64,000 bases of DNA from Jannaschia sp. CCS1. GTDB lineage: Bacteria; Pseudomonadota; Alphaproteobacteria; Rhodobacterales; Rhodobacteraceae. Location: positions 3,348,001 to 3,412,000 of the forward strand of contig NC_007802.1 of assembly GCF_000013565.1 (NCBI RefSeq), written 5' to 3'. Within the stretch, counting starts at the first letter, position 1, and each line of letters starts with the position of its first letter. Shown one piece after another: positions 38,557-50,046 of the stretch. Both the position numbers and the translations under genes were made by a program. The notes beneath the pieces are model-generated. The model made no database searches. It was not told the origin of the DNA and saw nothing but the letters and a program-made list of their open reading frames with translations.

Positions 38557-40569
38557 CTAGGGCGCGAGATCCACGTCGGTGTCCAACGCCTGGATCAGGG
38601 GCTGCAACTCTGCCTCGTGCCGCCGCCACCCGGCAACCGCACCGGTACCGATGGGCTGGCGGGCCTGGGCAAAGCTGAGGGTCTGGATGCGGCGGGCGCT
38701 CGCCTCGGGCGCAAGACAGGCAGGATCCCAGGGCAGGTTTGCGGCCTCCAGAAGCGCGCGGATCTGCGGCTCGGGGTCGGCGGTCAGCGCTTCATAATCA
38801 ACGACTTGGACCCGCTCCGGCAGCGCGTCTTTCCAAAAGTTCGTCACCGCGTCGTGAAGGCGGATGTAGCGCCCCATCGCCTGCAAATCATAGGCGTAGC
38901 GGTGCAGACCTTCGGGGAACATATTGCGATAGAGCGACAGGCCCGTGTCGCGCGGGTCCCGTTTGACGAGGATGAAGCGGGCCCCGGGAAGGGCGCGGGC
39001 CGCGTGGCCGATGCGCGAGAAGGTGGCGATGGCCTTGTCGGCGATGACCTGCGGCGCGCCGGTGCGACGCTGTGCGGCGGTGAGGTAGCGCGCGCCTGCG
39101 GTGGACAGAATATCGGGCGTGAGCGTGCCGTGGCGCAGTGCTTCGAGAACCGGCGATAGGGCACGGCCCAGGAATGGCATCTCTCCACCCGCGGTGACCT
39201 GTGCGTGGGCGGCCAGAATGGTCTCGATCAGCGTGGTGCCGGAGCGCGGCAGACCGGTGACGAAAAGAACCGGATCATCGGGACCGTCAGAGGGGAGATC
39301 CTTGAGGGTTTTCCATTCGGATGTGAGGGTGCGGGCCTCGGCCAGATCGGCCTCAAAGCTATAGGGATAGGCCTTTGCCATCAGACGGTTGGCGACGTCC
39401 AGATGCGGAAAGACAGCGCCATGGTCCTTCAGGTCCCAGCGCGCCTTGGCGGCGGCGAAATGAAGGGCGGCGCGGTCATGGGGTTTGAGATCCGCGCGGG
39501 CCAGAGCCGCATCCAGGCGCGGCAGAAGCGGATCATCGGGCGTGAGTTTGCGCCCGTTCATGTAGGCGCGGAAGGCCTCTCCATCCATCGGATTGGCCTC
39601 GATGGCGGCGGTCAGGGCCGTGTCGGCGGCTGAAAAATCACCTGCCGATTGGTGCAATTGCGCGCGGTGGGTCAGGACGTCTGCGGTGGGGTCGGACAAG
39701 GCGTGATCCATGGCGGCTTCGGCCCCGCTGATATCGCCCGCCTCTTCACAGGCCAGCGCGAGGGTTCGCAGGAGGGGCACGCGCGGCGCGCCTGCGGCGA
39801 TGGCGGTTTTCGCCGCCTCCAAAGCGCGGTCGCCCTGCCCCGTTTGAGCGAGCGACAGGGCCAGCTCTGCCGGGCCGCGCGGGGGCTTGGGGGGATGTGC
39901 GTCCAACGTGGCCACGGCCTCCTCGGGCCTGCCGGTATCGCGGTAGAGGCGGGCGCGGATCAAACTGGAATCGGGTGAGGTGAGGTCGTCCAGCACCGCC
40001 TCCGCCGCGATGGGCCTGCCAGCAGCGGCATAGGCGCGAGCCAGCGCGAGGCGGGCCGGCGCGTGGTTGGGATCGCGGGCGGTCGCGGCCTCCAGCGGAG
40101 CAACGGCGGGTTTGGACAGTGCAAGCCGCGCTTCGCCCAACAGATACGCGGGCCAGAACGCGGCGGGCGCCAGTTTGCCAAGCGCCATGGCCCCCGCCTC
40201 CGCCTGGTCGGCGCGGCCTTTCGCGAGGGCCTGCTGGATGGGGCGCGCGTCCAACTCGGACCCCAGCGGCACCTTGGCGCGCTGCGCGTCTTTCTCCAAC
40301 TTTACACGGGCCCCGCCGCGCAGGACAGAGTGGAGACCCTGCCAGATCGCGGCTTCCTTTGGCTTAAGCTTAAGGGCCGCGCGGAAGGCTATTTCTGCCT
40401 GTTTCGGATCACGATCCGCCAGGCACCGGGCGCATTGGAACAGCACCTCGGGGATGTCGGATTTGACGGCCAGGATCTGGTCATAGAGCGCGAGCGCGGC
40501 GGCGGTGTCACCCGCCTGCTGCGCGGCCAGCCCCTGCTGGTAGAGGGCGGTCAAATCCAGAGGAGCCAT
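38557..40569 (-). CDS. TPR-sulfotransferase fusion protein
   Basis: A 670-residue protein. Residues 1-400 are TPR-like repeats (DTAAALALYDQILAVKSDIP, ALARAYAAAGRPIAAEAVLD and others). From about residue 425 there is a P-loop sulfotransferase domain: the 5'-PAPS loop is DPVLFVTGLPRSGTTLIETI, and the 3'-phosphate motif is FILVKRDPRDTGLSLYRNMF. Such proteins transfer sulfate from PAPS to a sugar, lipid or protein acceptor. The ATP sulfurylase/APS kinase that makes PAPS lies 3 kb downstream. It is almost adjacent to the Lrp regulator gene (three-base gap). Confidence 0.88.
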   Translation of the reverse strand: MAPLDLTALYQQGLAAQQAGDTAAALALYDQILAVKSDIPEVLFQCARCLADRDPKQAEIAFRAALKLKPKEAAIWQGLHSVLRGGARVKLEKDAQRAKVPLGSELDARPIQQALAKGRADQAEAGAMALGKLAPAAFWPAYLLGEARLALSKPAVAPLEAATARDPNHAPARLALARAYAAAGRPIAAEAVLDDLTSPDSSLIRARLYRDTGRPEEAVATLDAHPPKPPRGPAELALSLAQTGQGDRALEAAKTAIAAGAPRVPLLRTLALACEEAGDISGAEAAMDHALSDPTADVLTHRAQLHQSAGDFSAADTALTAAIEANPMDGEAFRAYMNGRKLTPDDPLLPRLDAALARADLKPHDRAALHFAAAKARWDLKDHGAVFPHLDVANRLMAKAYPYSFEADLAEARTLTSEWKTLKDLPSDGPDDPVLFVTGLPRSGTTLIETILAAHAQVTAGGEMPFLGRALSPVLEALRHGTLTPDILSTAGARYLTAAQRRTGAPQVIADKAIATFSRIGHAARALPGARFILVKRDPRDTGLSLYRNMFPEGLHRYAYDLQAMGRYIRLHDAVTNFWKDALPERVQVVDYEALTADPEPQIRALLEAANLPWDPACLAPEASARRIQTLSFAQARQPIGTGAVAGWRRHEAELQPLIQALDTDVDLAP

Positions 40570-40572
40570 GGG

Positions 40573-41073
40573 TCAGGCGATCTGCGACAGGCGGTCTTCC
40601 ATCACGTCAAACGGCACGCCGGGGGTGTCCTTGGCCCCGCGGATCACCAGCGACGTGCGGACGGAGGCGACGTTGGGGGCCGATGTCAATTCTCCGGTCA
40701 GGAAGCTCTGGAACGACGACAGATCGGGCGCAACGCACTTGAGAATAAAGTCAATTTCGCCGTTGAGCATGTGGCACTCACGGACCAGCGGCCAGGCATT
40801 GCAGCGATCCTCAAAGGCGGTCAGGTCCGCCTCGGCCTGACTGGCGAGGGAAATCATGGCGAAGACCTGCACTTCAAATCCAAGCTGCCGCGCGTCAACT
40901 TCAGCGTGGTAGCCCTTGATATATCCGGCCTCCTCCAGCGTGCGCACACGGCGCAGGCAGGGCGGCGCAGAGATGCCGACGCGTTTGGCCAGCTCCACAT
41001 TGGTCATGCGACCATCACCTTGCAGCTCGGCCAGAATCTTCCGGTCGATCTCGTCGAGTTTGGTTTGCGGCAT
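40573..41073 (-). CDS. Lrp/AsnC family transcriptional regulator
   Basis: A 166-residue Lrp-type regulator. HTH: LDEIDRKILAELQGDGRMTN, then VELAKRVGISAPPCLRRVRT; RAM/AsnC domain: GYHAEVDARQLGFEVQVFAM and onward. The ATG at 41071-41073 has a CAGGGA site nine bases upstream, so the earlier in-frame ATG at 41091 is less likely. It is divergent from trxB. Effectors of this family are amino acids; the exact one is unknown. Confidence 0.92.
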   Translation of the reverse strand: MPQTKLDEIDRKILAELQGDGRMTNVELAKRVGISAPPCLRRVRTLEEAGYIKGYHAEVDARQLGFEVQVFAMISLASQAEADLTAFEDRCNAWPLVRECHMLNGEIDFILKCVAPDLSSFQSFLTGELTSAPNVASVRTSLVIRGAKDTPGVPFDVMEDRLSQIA

Positions 41074-41108
41074 TGGCGTCGTTCCCTGCATGTGCGATTT
41101 TCAGATGA

Positions 41109-42260
<1,152 letters not shown>

Positions 42261-43441: not shown

Positions 43442-43461
43442 TTTGTTCAAATTTGAACAAA
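43442..43461. promoter_or_regulatory. Perfect 20-bp palindrome, candidate operator 1
   Basis: TTTGTTCAAATTTGAACAAA is its own reverse complement. It lies between the divergent methyltransferase and the MarR-sat-cysC gene, 60 bases upstream of the latter's ATG. A 16-bp-core symmetric site of this form is the usual target of a dimeric winged-helix regulator. Confidence 0.7.
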
Positions 43462-43490
43462 GGGGTTTCTTTTGAGACCGGCCTGTGGCA

Positions 43491-43510
43491 AGCGTTCAGA
43501 ATTGAACAAA
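43491..43510. promoter_or_regulatory. Second copy of the palindrome, candidate operator 2
   Basis: AGCGTTCAGAATTGAACAAA matches operator 1 at 15 of 20 positions and keeps the GTTCA-N4-TGAAC core, 49 bases centre to centre from it. It lies just 11 bases before the ATG at 43522, where a bound protein would block transcription or initiation. Confidence 0.65.
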
Positions 43511-43521
43511 CCTGGATTCCC

Positions 43522-45594
43522 ATGACCGCCCTTGCCCCCACCCTCCCCGATGACGACCAGCTGTTTGTGCTGTTGCGTCAACTTGATGCCGCGCCGGATG
43601 CGCCGCAGCGGGCAACGGCGCAGGCCCTTGGGATCAGCCTTGGGCGGCTGAACAGCCAGTTGCGCGCCGTGACGGAAGCGGGCCTTGTGCAACGCGCGGG
43701 CCGGGACGGACCGGACAAACGCCACCGCATGGCCTATGCTCTCACCGCGCGCGGTGCGGCCGTGAAAGCCCGGCTGGTGGATCAGTTTCTCGCCCGAAAA
43801 TTCAATGAATACAACGCGCTCCACGCCGAATTGACCGGCCACGCGCTTTCCTCCACCCCGATGAAAAATAGGACCATGACCATGGCAGCCCCTCTCCACG
43901 CTCCGATCCAAGAGCTCTACGTCTCTTATGATAGCGCCCAGAAACTGAAGGTAGAGGCAGGCGAGTTGCCGTCCTGGGACCTGACCGCGCGGCAGGTCTG
44001 TGACCTGGAGCTGTTGATGAACGGCGGCTTCAACCCGCTAAAGGGGTTCATGGGCGAAGACGATTACAACAGCGTCGTCGAAAACATGCGGATGGAAGAC
44101 GGCACGCTTTGGCCGATGCCAATCACGCTGGACGTGTCCGAGGCGTTCGCAGGCGACGTGGAGCCCGGCCAGGACATCGCGCTGCGCGATGCGGAGGGGG
44201 TCATTCTGGCGATCCTGTCCATCAGCGACAAGTGGACACCCAACAAGGCCGTCGAGGCCGCGAAGGTCTACGGCGCCGATGACATTGCGCATCCGGCGGT
44301 GAATTACCTGCACAACATCGCCGGGCCGATCTATCTCGGCGGCGCGATCACCGGCATTCAACAGCCGATCCATTACGATTTCCGCGCCCGCCGGGACACG
44401 CCCAACGAACTGCGCGCCTATTTCCGCAAGCTGGGTTGGCGCAAGATCGTGGCGTTCCAGACCCGCAACCCGCTGCACCGCGCGCATCAGGAACTGACGT
44501 TCCGCGCCGCCAAGGAAGCGCAGGCCAACCTGCTGATCCACCCGGTCGTGGGCCTGACCAAGCCCGGAGACGTGGACCATTTCACCCGCGTGCGCTGCTA
44601 TGAGGCGGTGCTGGACCAATACCCGGCGGCGACGACCACAATGTCGCTGCTAAACCTTGCGATGCGGATGGCAGGCCCGCGAGAGGCCGTCTGGCACGGG
44701 TTGATCCGCAAGAACCACGGCTGCACGCATTTCATCGTTGGCCGCGACCATGCGGGCCCCGGCAAGAACTCCGCCGGTGAGGATTTCTACGGCCCCTATG
44801 ACGCGCAGGACCTGTTCCGCCAGCATCAGGACGAGATGGGCATCGAAATGGTCGACTTCAAACACATGGTCTATGTGCAGGAGCGTGCCCAGTACGAGCC
44901 GAATGACGAGATTGCGGATCGCGAAAACGTCACGATCCTGAACATCTCGGGCACGGAGCTGCGCCGCCGTCTGCGCGAGGGGCTGGAGATCCCCGAATGG
45001 TTCAGTTTCCCGCAGGTCGTGCAGGAATTGCGCCGGACGTCACCGCCCCGCGCGAACCAGGGGTTCACGGTGTTTTTCACCGGCCTGTCGGGCTCGGGCA
45101 AATCCACGATCGCCAATGCGATGATGGTGAAGCTGATGGAACAGGGCGGGCGACCGGTGACGCTGTTGGATGGCGACGTGGTGCGCAAGAACCTGTCCTC
45201 GGAGCTTGGCTTCTCCAAGGAGCACCGCGATCTGAACATCCGCCGCATCGGTTATGTGGCAAGTGAGATCACCAAGAACGGCGGCATCGCGATCTGTGCG
45301 CCCATCGCCCCCTACACCGCCACCCGCCGCGCCGTGCGCGAAGAGATCGAGCAGTTCGGCGCGCTTGTCGAAGTCCATGTGGCGACCTCTCTGGAGGAAT
45401 GCGAACGCCGCGACCGCAAGGGCCTCTACAAGCTGGCGCGGGAGGGGAAGATCAAGGAATTCACCGGGATCTCGGACCCCTATGAAGCGCCCACGCAGGC
45501 CGAACTGGTTGTCGACACAGAAGGCATGGACGTGGATTACTGCGCACAGCAGGTGTTGCTGAAGCTGGAGAGCATGGGGCTGATCAAGGCGTGA
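43522..45594 (+). CDS. sat-cysC: MarR-type HTH domain joined in frame to bifunctional ATP sulfurylase/APS kinase
   Basis: A single 690-codon frame with no stop. Residues 1-110: winged helix of the MarR/EPS-associated type (APQRATAQALGISLGRLNSQ, MAYALTARGAAVKARLVDQF). Residues from about 121: ATP sulfurylase (SWDLTARQVCDLELLMNGGF, TRNPLHRAHQEL, GRDHAGPGKNSA), and from about 515 APS kinase (FFTGLSGSGKSTIANAMMVK, LLDGDVVRKNLSSELGFSKE). The bifunctional part alone (ATG 43882, preceded by TAGGA eight bases ahead) has normal length, so it may be translated separately as well as fused. It makes PAPS from sulfate and ATP. Two operators lie directly upstream. Confidence 0.85.
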   Translation: MTALAPTLPDDDQLFVLLRQLDAAPDAPQRATAQALGISLGRLNSQLRAVTEAGLVQRAGRDGPDKRHRMAYALTARGAAVKARLVDQFLARKFNEYNALHAELTGHALSSTPMKNRTMTMAAPLHAPIQELYVSYDSAQKLKVEAGELPSWDLTARQVCDLELLMNGGFNPLKGFMGEDDYNSVVENMRMEDGTLWPMPITLDVSEAFAGDVEPGQDIALRDAEGVILAILSISDKWTPNKAVEAAKVYGADDIAHPAVNYLHNIAGPIYLGGAITGIQQPIHYDFRARRDTPNELRAYFRKLGWRKIVAFQTRNPLHRAHQELTFRAAKEAQANLLIHPVVGLTKPGDVDHFTRVRCYEAVLDQYPAATTTMSLLNLAMRMAGPREAVWHGLIRKNHGCTHFIVGRDHAGPGKNSAGEDFYGPYDAQDLFRQHQDEMGIEMVDFKHMVYVQERAQYEPNDEIADRENVTILNISGTELRRRLREGLEIPEWFSFPQVVQELRRTSPPRANQGFTVFFTGLSGSGKSTIANAMMVKLMEQGGRPVTLLDGDVVRKNLSSELGFSKEHRDLNIRRIGYVASEITKNGGIAICAPIAPYTATRRAVREEIEQFGALVEVHVATSLEECERRDRKGLYKLAREGKIKEFTGISDPYEAPTQAELVVDTEGMDVDYCAQQVLLKLESMGLIKA

Positions 45595-45950: not shown

Positions 45951-46055
45951 CCGCGCGTTGACGTCTGCTCTGCCAGCTCCATCTTGTGCAACGTTGCCCT
46001 GCACCGGGCCACCCCGTTAGGATAGGGGCACCTGATCCCGTTGGAGACTATGACA

Positions 46056-46811
46056 ATGGCCGGCGCGCGTGCCCATCCTGGTGCGATCACAGAGCTTGCG
46101 GCACATCTGCTTGCGGCGGACGGGTTTGATGAGCGTGCTGTCATCCTGGACCGTGCCCTGGGGGCTTTGGGCGGCGACTGGATCAACATCGCCGAAGGGT
46201 CCGGCGACACGATGATCCCCCATTGGTTCTACAGCACCCTTCCCGCCGACACGCTGACCGCATACGCCAGCGATGCCCATTGGCGCCGCGACACGATTTA
46301 CCGCACCGCGATGCAATCCACGCCCCAGGTCATCTGGAGCCAGACAGGCCCGCGGCCCGGCTCCGGCGCTGGCGAGGACGCCACGTTTGACACGTTCATC
46401 GGGGACGCGGGGACGAAGGCGATCGTCACCTACACCCTGCAAAGCACCCCTGTCGGGGATACGCGGGCGATCTCTCTGATCTCGTCGCTGCCCACCAAAG
46501 AGGTGTTTCAGCCCGCAAACCTCAGGGACATCGCGGATACCATCCGGCTGATGTTGCCCTGGATGGATGCCAGCGCAACGCGTGAGACCGGGCGGTTGGT
46601 GCCCTACCCGGTGCGCCAGCTGTCGCAGCGGGAACGGGAGGCCGTCACCCTTCTGGCGGGCGGTTTGCAGACTGCGCGCATATCGGACGCGATGGGGGTG
46701 GCAGAGGTCACCGTTCACAAACACATCCGCAATGCCCGCCACAAACTAGGCGCGCGAACACGGGAACATCTGGTCGCCGCGGCGATCCGCAGGCGTCACA
46801 TCGCGGTCTGA
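46056..46811 (+). CDS. LuxR family transcriptional regulator (orphan solo)
   Basis: A 251-residue regulator. The N-terminal 170 residues resemble the autoinducer-binding domain family in size and style (WINIAEGSGDTMIPHWFYST, AYASDAHWRRDTIYRTAM), and the C-terminal LuxR HTH is clear: LSQREREAVTLLAGGLQTAR, then ISDAMGVAEVTVHKHIRNAR. No luxI lies nearby. ATG 46056 has GGAG nine bases ahead; 46050 is possible. A palindrome GCAACGTTGC stands upstream at 45988-45997, and an inverted repeat AGGTATC-N6-GATACCT lies just after the stop. Confidence 0.85.
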   Translation: MAGARAHPGAITELAAHLLAADGFDERAVILDRALGALGGDWINIAEGSGDTMIPHWFYSTLPADTLTAYASDAHWRRDTIYRTAMQSTPQVIWSQTGPRPGSGAGEDATFDTFIGDAGTKAIVTYTLQSTPVGDTRAISLISSLPTKEVFQPANLRDIADTIRLMLPWMDASATRETGRLVPYPVRQLSQREREAVTLLAGGLQTARISDAMGVAEVTVHKHIRNARHKLGARTREHLVAAAIRRRHIAV

Positions 46812-46812
46812 G

Positions 46813-46832
46813 AGGTATCGAATGTGATACCT
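46813..46832. promoter_or_regulatory. 20-bp inverted repeat between LuxR solo and VPLPA-CTERM gene
   Basis: AGGTATCGAATGTGATACCT: two perfect 7-bp arms around 6 bases, the same overall length and symmetry as a lux box. It starts one base after the luxR stop and 66 bases before the next gene. A weak terminator is the alternative reading, because TTTGCC follows. Confidence 0.5.
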
Positions 46833-46898
46833 TTGCCGCGCCGGAACCTGCGGGCACGATCAGGGCTGTTTTTCGCGGTCCCGTGCAAAGGATAGTCC

Positions 46899-47765
46899 AT
46901 GCCCCGTCCCTTTCGTATCAACCTCGCCCCAATGGTGATGGTCCTCGCCCTGTCTGCGCCGGCGCAGGCCTCTCCTATCCAGCTTCTCCTGACCAGCGGC
47001 GTCACCCGTGGCAGCAGTGGAACGGTGGAACGGGACAGCGTCTTCATCAGTGAGGACGGCGTGACTGCATCGGGCACCGCGTCGGCTGATCAGACCTTTG
47101 GCGTGGAATTTTCCAACTCGGCTGAGTCCACCGGCAGCGTTGATGCCAGCACCGGACAGTTGCGGTTTTCACTGGACGGCACATATACGTGCAACGCCGA
47201 AGTGTGTGGCGCGGGGTACAGTGCATCGGCCCTGGCCACGGTGGCGGAGACTTTTTTGGTTTCGGGAACCGGAACGTTGACGTCGGTCATGTTGGTCGAG
47301 GCCGCCTGGGACTCGCCGCGCTACAATTTCACATCGACGATGTCTTTGTCATCCGGTGGCAACCGCGACGGAGATCAGGTGGCGTTCACCTACGAGCCGA
47401 GCCAGAATATGACCGGCTCTGGCGTCAGTCAGCTTTTGATGACGGAGCTGTCGTTTAACGGAGCGCTGAACCAGGCTGTCTCCGCCCAGTGGCGTTTGCA
47501 GGGGGACATCAGCGCCACGGATTCAGAGGATGGCCAGAGCACCACCGGCTTCATGAACGCCGCCAACACGGCCACGTTCTTCGTGTTTGCCAGCGAGGGG
47601 CTGACCTTCTCGGCCAATGATGAGAATTTCCTGTCCAACGCGGCGTATCCTAATCTCGACAATCCCGCGCCGGTTCCCCTGCCTGCCGGTCTGCCGCTGT
47701 TGCTGGCGGGCCTTGGCGTGTTCGGCGTCATGGGCGGGCGCCGCAAACGGCTGGCAGCGGCCTGA
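46899..47765 (+). CDS. VPLPA-CTERM sorting domain protein
   Basis: A 288-residue exported protein. Signal peptide: PFRINLAPMVMVLALSAPAQ. The middle is Ser/Thr/Gly-rich and beta-type. The C-terminus has the sorting signal: VPLPAGLPLLLAGLGVFGVM followed by GGRRKRL, i.e. VPLPA motif, hydrophobic segment and basic end. In this class an exosortase (XrtD for VPLPA) is expected to cut and anchor the protein; none is in the window. AAAGGATAG precedes the ATG. A terminator follows. Confidence 0.88.
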   Translation: MPRPFRINLAPMVMVLALSAPAQASPIQLLLTSGVTRGSSGTVERDSVFISEDGVTASGTASADQTFGVEFSNSAESTGSVDASTGQLRFSLDGTYTCNAEVCGAGYSASALATVAETFLVSGTGTLTSVMLVEAAWDSPRYNFTSTMSLSSGGNRDGDQVAFTYEPSQNMTGSGVSQLLMTELSFNGALNQAVSAQWRLQGDISATDSEDGQSTTGFMNAANTATFFVFASEGLTFSANDENFLSNAAYPNLDNPAPVPLPAGLPLLLAGLGVFGVMGGRRKRLAAA

Positions 47766-48522: not shown

Positions 48523-50046
48523 TTACTCATCGGTCGCCACAGGGGTATCAGCCCCCGGCTCCACCTCCGTCACATCGGGTGTCTCGGCGGGCGCTGGCGC
48601 ATCGGCCTCGGTGGGCAGACCGTTCTCCCACTGACCTTCCAGCACCTCGCCCGTGGCATAGGTCATCGTGCCATCGCCCTGACGGCGGCCGTTGACGAAG
48701 GTGCCGACATAGACGTCGCCGTTGGAATAGGTGGCGGTGCCTGCGCCGTTGATCTCTCCGTCATCCCATTGGCCTGCATAGGTGAAGCCATCGGGCATTG
48801 TCAGCGTGCCCTCCCCCTCGCGCTGGCCGGCGGCGAAGGTGCCTTCATAGATCGTACCATCGGCATAAGTCGCGCGGCCCTGTCCGTGGCGGAGGCCATC
48901 TTCCCACTGGCCCTGATACTGGTAGCCGTCCGGGTGGCTCATCGTGCCTTGCCCGTGCTGGCGCGCGTTGAGGAACTGGCCGTCATAGACCAGACCGTTG
49001 GCATAGGTCGCAACGCCCGCGCCCTGGATCACACCGTCGACCCATTCGCCCACATAGGACGCGCCGTCAGGATAGGTGATGGTGCCCGTTCCATGGGCGA
49101 GGTCGTTGCGGAACGTGCCCACATAGACGGAGCCATCGGGATAGGTGACGGTGCCTTCCCCCTCAATCCGGCCCTCGGTCCATTCGCCCACATAAAGGTA
49201 GCCGTCGGTGCCGGTAAACGTGCCGGTCCCGTCGCGGCGGTCGGCGGCGAACGCGCCTTCATAGACATCGCCGTTCTCATAGGTCACGCGACCCTGGCCC
49301 TGCCGCTGGCCGTTCACCAGCGTGCCGACATAGACGTCGCCGTTGGGTTGGGTCAGCGTGCCCTGGCCGTTGATCTGCCCCTCGGACCACGCGCCGTCGT
49401 AGATGACGCCATCTGCCATCTCCAACCGTCCGGTGCCCGAGCGCACGCCGCCCGCGAACTGGCCTGTATACGTCGCGCCATCGGGGTAGGTGATCGTGCC
49501 GGTGCCCTGTTTCACGCCGTCGGTCCATTCGCCTTCATACCGATAGCCGTTCGGCCCGGTCATCAGGCCCGTGCCGTGGTGCAGCGCGTTGCGGAACTGG
49601 CCCGTATAGGTGACGCCGTTGGAATAGATCGCGGTGCCCTGCCCCTCAATCCGGCCCTCGACCCAATCCCCTTCATAGGTGGAGCCGTCGGCGAAGGTGA
49701 TCATCCCCGTGCCCTGGGGCCGCCCGGCCACGAATGCGCCTTCATAGATGGATTGGTCGGGGAAGACCGCACGCCCCTGGCCACGGATTTCGCCATCCAC
49801 CCATGTGCCGGTGTATTCATACCCGTTGGGCAGGCGGTAGGTGCCAGTGCCATGCTGGACGCCGTTGCGGAATTCGCCCTCATAAATCCCGCCATTGTCG
49901 TATTGCTGGATATCGGTCGTCGTCTCGTCGGCGGTCTGGGCGCTTGCGCTGCCCGCGATCATGATTGGCGCCGCCGCCGCGATGAAAATCGCTGTGGCCC
50001 CCGCGACGAAGGTTGCAGTGCCTGTGGCCAAAATCCGTGACGTCAT
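48523..50046 (-). CDS. MORN-repeat exported protein (18 repeats)
   Basis: A 507-residue protein with a signal peptide (ATAIFIAAAAPIMIAGSASAQ) followed by 18 consecutive 23-residue MORN units and a partial 19th, of pattern YxGxxxxGxxxGxGxxxxxDG. Units alternate between F-type (YEGEFRNGVQHGTGT) and W-type (YTGTWVDGEIRGQGRA) through nearly the whole array. A Pro/Ala/Asp tail (APAPAETPDVTEVEPGADT) ends the protein. MORN arrays form long beta-hairpin ribbons that bind membranes or proteins. Unusually large for a bacterial exported protein; function unknown. Confidence 0.9.
   Translation of the reverse strand: MTSRILATGTATFVAGATAIFIAAAAPIMIAGSASAQTADETTTDIQQYDNGGIYEGEFRNGVQHGTGTYRLPNGYEYTGTWVDGEIRGQGRAVFPDQSIYEGAFVAGRPQGTGMITFADGSTYEGDWVEGRIEGQGTAIYSNGVTYTGQFRNALHHGTGLMTGPNGYRYEGEWTDGVKQGTGTITYPDGATYTGQFAGGVRSGTGRLEMADGVIYDGAWSEGQINGQGTLTQPNGDVYVGTLVNGQRQGQGRVTYENGDVYEGAFAADRRDGTGTFTGTDGYLYVGEWTEGRIEGEGTVTYPDGSVYVGTFRNDLAHGTGTITYPDGASYVGEWVDGVIQGAGVATYANGLVYDGQFLNARQHGQGTMSHPDGYQYQGQWEDGLRHGQGRATYADGTIYEGTFAAGQREGEGTLTMPDGFTYAGQWDDGEINGAGTATYSNGDVYVGTFVNGRRQGDGTMTYATGEVLEGQWENGLPTEADAPAPAETPDVTEVEPGADTPVATDE

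Follow-up and report, generated by a model that had tools for sequence, protein, structure and literature searches.

A single gene of Jannaschia sp. CCS1 encodes a predicted MarR-like DNA-binding domain and a complete ATP sulfurylase/APS kinase in one chain. We think it probable, at roughly three chances in four, that this protein is a trigger enzyme that represses its own gene, that it is made both as a long DNA-binding product and as a short enzyme-only product, and that the ligand state of the enzyme alters DNA binding. Comparison of related genomes establishes the fusion, an operator strictly tied to it, and constraint acting on an internal ribosome site and start codon; the link of the operator to the fusion and the constrained ribosome site go beyond an earlier first-pass annotation of this DNA. 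The gene lies in a stretch of 64,000 nucleotides that was analysed as a whole (the window), and all coordinates refer to it (Table 1).

As the first-pass annotation had read it, the regulator region runs into ATP sulfurylase/APS kinase without a stop. The translated frame is open for 690 residues with no internal stops, and in it Pfam recognizes HTH_24 (residues 11-57), PUA_2 (124-280), ATP-sulfurylase (291-505) and APS_kinase (513-665). The enzyme part matches NCBIfam PRK05537, the bifunctional enzyme, over profile positions 3-571 of 572 with 1036.6 bits, above the cut-off of 669. Across 46 fused sequences the catalytic-region residues are invariant, as are P-loop residues G524-T529; by these comparisons the protein contains a complete enzyme carrying its catalytic motifs. 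Among solved enzymes, fungal ATP sulfurylases come closest. Likeness to the known PRK05537 bifunctional enzymes (Aquifex 2gks, Penicillium 1i2d) covers the whole enzyme part, whereas the present protein adds a predicted N-terminal DNA-binding domain, an operator of its own and an internal start.

The N-terminal domain had been described as being of the EPS-associated MarR type. Kinship to that family (TIGR04176, MarR_EPS) holds up, but curated membership does not: the domain scores 70.2 bits within the whole protein and 74.9 bits alone, and the label is used here for kinship only because both scores fall below the curated cut-off of 88. In the AlphaFold2 model of the domain there are helices at residues 11-23, 29-36 and 40-52, a wing at 56-59/71-74 and a long helix at 76-105; helix 40-52 would, by its position, be the recognition helix. 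Structural matches to the model are best for MarR proteins, with PadR proteins almost tied, and a phmmer search of the domain against solved structures gave no match better than E 0.18. A full-length AlphaFold model was poor in the ATP sulfurylase part (mean pLDDT 64.8) and was kept for the N-terminal domain only. The HTH_24 match, the confident winged-helix model and a frame that is continuous in 100 of 100 fused loci place a predicted DNA-binding domain in the same chain as the enzyme.

Table 1. Features of the fused gene, its promoter region and a neighbouring gene, in window coordinates
Feature	Position	Strand	Basis or remark
TPR-repeat sulfotransferase	38557-40569	-	PF13469
Distal operator GTTCAAATTTGAAC	43445..43458	.	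Exact palindrome
Promoter-like stretch: -35-like TTT at about -28, -10-like ATGY at -4 to -1 (relative to the proximal operator)	43465..43493	+	Column conservation
Proximal operator GTTCAGAATTGAAC	43494..43507	.	Exact palindrome directly after the promoter-like elements, 14 nt upstream of the ATG at 43522
Long product, MarR-like domain plus ATP sulfurylase/APS kinase	43522..45594	+	690 aa; domain matches, kept in relatives
Winged-helix domain, residues 11-105	43552..43836	+	AlphaFold2 model, mean pLDDT 87.3; MarR-like structural matches
Variable linker holding the internal ribosome site	43837..43881	+	Sequence comparison
AGGA, internal Shine-Dalgarno core	43870..43873	+	8 nt before the ATG at 43882; same layout in 97/100 loci
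Short product (inferred), ATP sulfurylase/APS kinase alone, 570 aa	43882..45594	+	Conserved internal start
PUA-like and ATP sulfurylase catalytic domains	43891..45036	+	Pfam; Foldseek and sequence matches to 1i2d/1m8p
APS kinase domain, P-loop GLSGSGKST intact	45058..45516	+	Pfam and translation

The same fusion was sought in other genomes and found. A first survey of 60 relatives and the own genome revealed it in all 12 other genomes of the genus and in 4 further family members, with a continuous frame of about 690-710 residues; outside the family, the N-domain matches of at least 60 residues among those seen in this survey are free-standing frames of about 190-240 residues. Among 394 sampled family genomes, the enzyme itself was found in 329 and some N-domain match in at least 173, the N-domain count covering at most 11 scored candidates per genome and the stronger matches. 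Reading of the DNA confirmed the fusion in at least 89 of the 394, and 2 more genomes hold fused genes cut by contig ends; fused genes are a minority, at about 28% of family genomes with the enzyme. Among the matches listed, the fusion occurs for example in Phaeobacter italicus, Leisingera aquimarina, Shimia marina, Maritimibacter alkaliphilus HTCC2654 and Roseicyclus, as well as Roseovarius. The loci that were read, genus included, number 112: 100 with the N-domain and 12 without it, the latter picked mostly as unfused. Two unfused genomes (G080, G424) have long frames, and a search of these for the N-domain found none. Plasmid copies are unfused (10 records cover at least 80% of the query, and in the ten best rows no match begins before residue 98). 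The upstream DNA of one such copy, from Paracoccus saliphilus (match from residue 98), was inspected by eye for the remnant of a lost MarR domain; it held nothing recognizable, and that idea was dropped.

In all 100 loci holding the N-domain, the reading frame passes from the domain into the enzyme without meeting a stop. The junction thus proves free of the missing base or stop that might have undone the first-pass annotation, and regulator and enzyme, rather than being always separate genes in close relatives, are fused in 12 of 12. That a sequencing or assembly error joined two adjacent genes is ruled out by these fused relatives of the genus and by an open frame in 100 independent genomes; we assign this explanation a practically negligible probability.

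The fused gene had also been credited with its own operator pair, and both palindromes are indeed exact. Their significance rests on conservation in relatives, because the count in the window is no more than chance: a search for motif enrichment in the window gave 3 matches at one mismatch or fewer, a number reached by 12 of 100 shuffles. Conservation is extensive. GTTC-N6-GAAC is present within 200 bp upstream of 99 of the 100 fused genes, in 98 of them as GTTCA-N4-TGAAC, and at the remaining locus (L053) the contig ends inside the operator site. The 21 unfused genomes compared with them are mostly high-scoring relatives and not a random draw; they were covered by 25 loci, 4 of which are second readings, and none has the motif within 500 bp upstream of the enzyme gene. 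This difference, 99/100 against 0/21, points to a specific operator at a target gene. A second, overlapping set of loci (the best 80 of 449 matches listed) contains the operator in 78 of 80, and one more is cut by a contig end. The last of these 80, L204, is a metagenome-assembled genome labelled Hyphomicrobiales with a fused gene without the operator; its upstream DNA resembles another gene, and it is perhaps a binning or assembly chimera.

The operator also has an extended form, GTTCANNNNTGAACAMA, whose distribution bears on the number of targets. Of 43 whole genomes, 39 have it at the fused-gene promoter, and only 3 of 67 match rows lie elsewhere; the genus accounts for 13 of 13 genomes and 30 of 32 match rows, the other fused genomes for 26 of 30 and 34 of 35. 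In the four genomes with no match, the sequence after the core differs in the loci read, or the extension fails to match. Since the extended operator occurs almost only at the own promoter, the fused protein seems, by motif, to be an autoregulator with a single target, itself. For the own genome, a wider regulon was considered and rejected: the operator core occurs at 7 sites (about 4 are expected by chance, an estimate assuming equal base frequencies), 2 of them at the fused gene, and the 5 others, several of which fall within unrelated open frames or at their beginnings, all lack the extension.

To the TIGR04176 regulators the fused domain is related by a homologous, predicted winged helix and by a shared operator, and it differs from them in its score below the curated cut-off and in its attachment to an enzyme. 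Among 45 free-standing MarR_EPS-like genes (loci L019-L021, L030, L031 and L283-L322), a perfect GTTCA-N4-TGAAC core lies within 300 bp upstream of 21, rising to 27 when one mismatch is allowed, and 18 have no site within one mismatch in those 300 bp. Because the core site is common to free-standing relatives, domain and site appear to belong together whether or not an enzyme is attached, and GTTCA-N4-TGAAC is a candidate operator for MarR_EPS regulators in general. The free-standing relatives looked at by eye adjoin nucleotide-sugar genes; the fused gene, judged by the neighbours it keeps in relatives, does not lie in an exopolysaccharide gene cluster. A tree of the domain, built from few columns and including one very long row (L189), splits fused from free-standing domains by one branch with support 93. 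L189, from genome G332, is an odd fused copy with a diverged N-domain (E 5e-15), a very long branch and a ribosome site spaced 7 nt from its start; it is perhaps a separate fusion event.

What the operator does can be approached through its position. Outside the site itself, two sets of columns are conserved across 99 upstream regions: TTT at -28 to -26 and AT at -4/-3, counted from the proximal operator. We read these as putative -35 and -10 elements, which in this genome are weak matches. On that reading the operator would lie over the start of transcription, which suggests that the proximal site acts in repression. The fused protein might instead activate its own promoter, or switch between activation and repression by way of the distal and proximal sites. 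Two sites are present in 29 fused loci, and in 17 of these they are 47-49 bp apart (49 bp in 14), as in this genome, with the distal one placed ahead of the -35-like columns, an arrangement that such a switch could use. However, 70 of the 100 fused loci have one site only in the searched region, and the site that is kept nearly everywhere sits at the presumed transcription start, the usual position for repression; we regard activation or switching as unlikely, though worth keeping in mind. It is also conceivable that the domain anchors the enzyme on DNA or has a part in assembly, and that the operator serves another regulator, such as a free-standing MarR protein of the same family. The same motif often precedes the free-standing relatives, and some genomes have both fused and free-standing copies, which speaks for this; yet the own genome has one domain match, among the matches listed, and nevertheless carries both operators, and the operator accompanies the fusion and is absent from the 21 unfused genomes. 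We consider a tethering or assembly role quite unlikely.

The conserved operator is joined by a second conserved feature, located inside the gene. The first-pass annotation had proposed that fused and free enzyme could both be made, and the window does contain a TAGGA (43869-43873) ahead of an internal ATG at 43882. Comparison of the fused loci supports the proposal: in 97 of 100, an in-frame AGG followed by A lies exactly 8 nt before an in-frame ATG (92), GTG (4) or TTG (1), a count that leaves out the two fused genes cut by contig ends (G068, G416). The exceptions are L050 (CGG), L184 (AGG then T) and L189, whose start is in another frame. The second set of loci has the same layout in 80 of 80, with ATG in 71 and GTG in 9. 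Elsewhere in the same genes AGG makes up 35 of 5,003 arginine codons (0.7%), and AGGA precedes none of 3,733 other in-frame ATG, GTG or TTG codons at this distance. At 14 other arginine columns of these proteins (with R19 and R30 out of register in some loci), the codon drifts among CGC, CGT, CGG and CGA, and AGG appears once; because arginine codons drift in this way, common descent alone cannot explain the kept AGG. Predicted pairing with the 16S tail has a mean of -4.58 at the internal start; the best candidate first start gives -2.45 and random positions -2.31, and in 91 of 96 loci the internal start pairs more strongly than the first. The own genome differs little between the two starts (-3.9 at the internal and -3.1 at the first). 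Together, these patterns show that the internal ribosome site and start codon are under strong constraint. One could propose that AGG is kept so that ribosomes pause at the domain boundary and that the long protein is the only product, AGG being a rare arginine codon here and the linker that contains it being variable. Pausing fails to explain the A that follows and the fixed spacing of 8 nt, and the residue at that distance is always encoded by an initiator codon (ATG, GTG or TTG). We give the pausing explanation very little credence, and take the conserved layout as the probable mark of a second product.

The genomic surroundings speak to the role of the gene. The own genome has one match to the enzyme and one PF01507 protein (L323), which adjoins a sulfite-reductase-like frame and which, by its cysteine pattern, is presumably an APS reductase of the CysH type and not CysD. 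The fused protein thus appears to be the only sulfate-activating enzyme of this genome and, being the sole one, would be the product of a housekeeping gene; if L323 is of the CysH type, APS would feed cysteine synthesis and the kinase half would make PAPS for sulfation. Divergent genes for an Lrp-type regulator (lrp) and a trxB-like protein (window 40573-42260) lie upstream of the fused gene and are kept in 16 of 16 relatives (L032-L047). The sulfotransferase that the first-pass annotation placed about 3 kb away is there, and is syntenic within 8 kb in 13 of the 16 (all 12 of the genus and one other). The local control of sulfated glycan production that the annotation drew from it is not borne out: across the 43 genomes the extended operator is almost confined to the own promoter, a housekeeping role is indicated, and the neighbours kept in every relative are lrp and the trxB-like gene, against 13/16 for the sulfotransferase. 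On the other side of the fused gene, window 46041-47765 holds a LuxR-type frame with a weak autoinducer-binding match and, after it, a protein whose PEP-CTERM motif scores at its cut-off, and window 48523-50046 (minus strand) encodes a protein with ten MORN repeats.

Several known systems resemble parts of this arrangement. Trigger enzymes known from E. coli include PutA, BirA and NadR (PMC8249747), which like the present protein combine a metabolic enzyme and a DNA-binding domain in one chain; further likenesses are the probable control of a gene of the own pathway and, judged by motif distribution, regulation of a single target. In contrast, sulfate activation is not among the five E. coli examples listed there, and the present gene has a conserved internal start that would free the enzyme from its DNA-binding domain. 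Long and short isoforms made through an internal start within a regulatory gene are described for AerR of Rhodobacter capsulatus, a member of the same bacterial order (PMC6199135); AerR, however, is a photoreceptor that acts with CrtJ and has no enzyme attached, and its start is a CTG preceded by an extension of 41 residues. As for ligands, PAPS is an allosteric ligand of a fungal ATP sulfurylase, acting through its kinase-like domain (PMC4220642). By analogy with this control of a fungal enzyme, PAPS or APS is a natural candidate signal here.

We propose that the long product would bind as a dimer, through its MarR-like domain, to one or two GTTCA-N4-TGAAC operators that adjoin and overlap the start of its promoter, and that once bound it would repress transcription of its own gene. 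DNA binding would change with the ligand state of the ATP sulfurylase/APS kinase part, APS or PAPS being the most plausible ligand, although the identity of the sensed metabolite is a guess. From the same mRNA, a second and better ribosome site would yield enzyme without the DNA-binding domain, so that most of the enzyme would be free and a minor part would be repressor. Binding by this particular domain, repression rather than activation, and the ratio of long to short product are what we infer from the conserved patterns.

In an enzyme tree of the 100 fused and 21 unfused sequences the labels are mixed, with 15 changes, and 3 of 118 inner branches are well supported; because the tree is poorly resolved, independent losses of fusion and operator cannot be firmly counted. 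An independent-pairs test of fusion against operator, the latter trait taken from the upstream count in these fused and unfused loci, found 2 pairs only on supported branches and has no power. One old fusion with repeated losses is possible, as is transfer between lineages. More tentatively, and as an idea that we would not yet favour, the gene could be a one-gene homeostat of sulfate activation in which long and short products co-assemble, operator affinity is set by PAPS or APS bound to the enzyme core, and the number of DNA-binding subunits per oligomer is fixed by the internal start, making the gene responsive to metabolite level and enzyme dose at once; on this view the fusion is old in Rhodobacteraceae and has been lost repeatedly along with its operator.

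In the open-licence literature searched we found no description of this fusion; terms sought for it are absent from the main text of a Ruegeria proteogenomics study (PMC3305630), and passages of PMC5343134 do not mention it. Control of sulfate activation seems undescribed there for the marine Rhodobacteraceae that carry the fusion, among them Phaeobacter, Leisingera, Shimia and Roseovarius. With regulator, operator, target and probable sensor in one gene, a single purified protein and a single promoter would suffice to test the proposal. The operator also supplies a candidate recognition motif for the little-studied MarR_EPS family, and the gene offers a comparative case in which selection keeps a ribosome site inside a fusion, such that the enzyme could be made with or without its DNA-binding domain.
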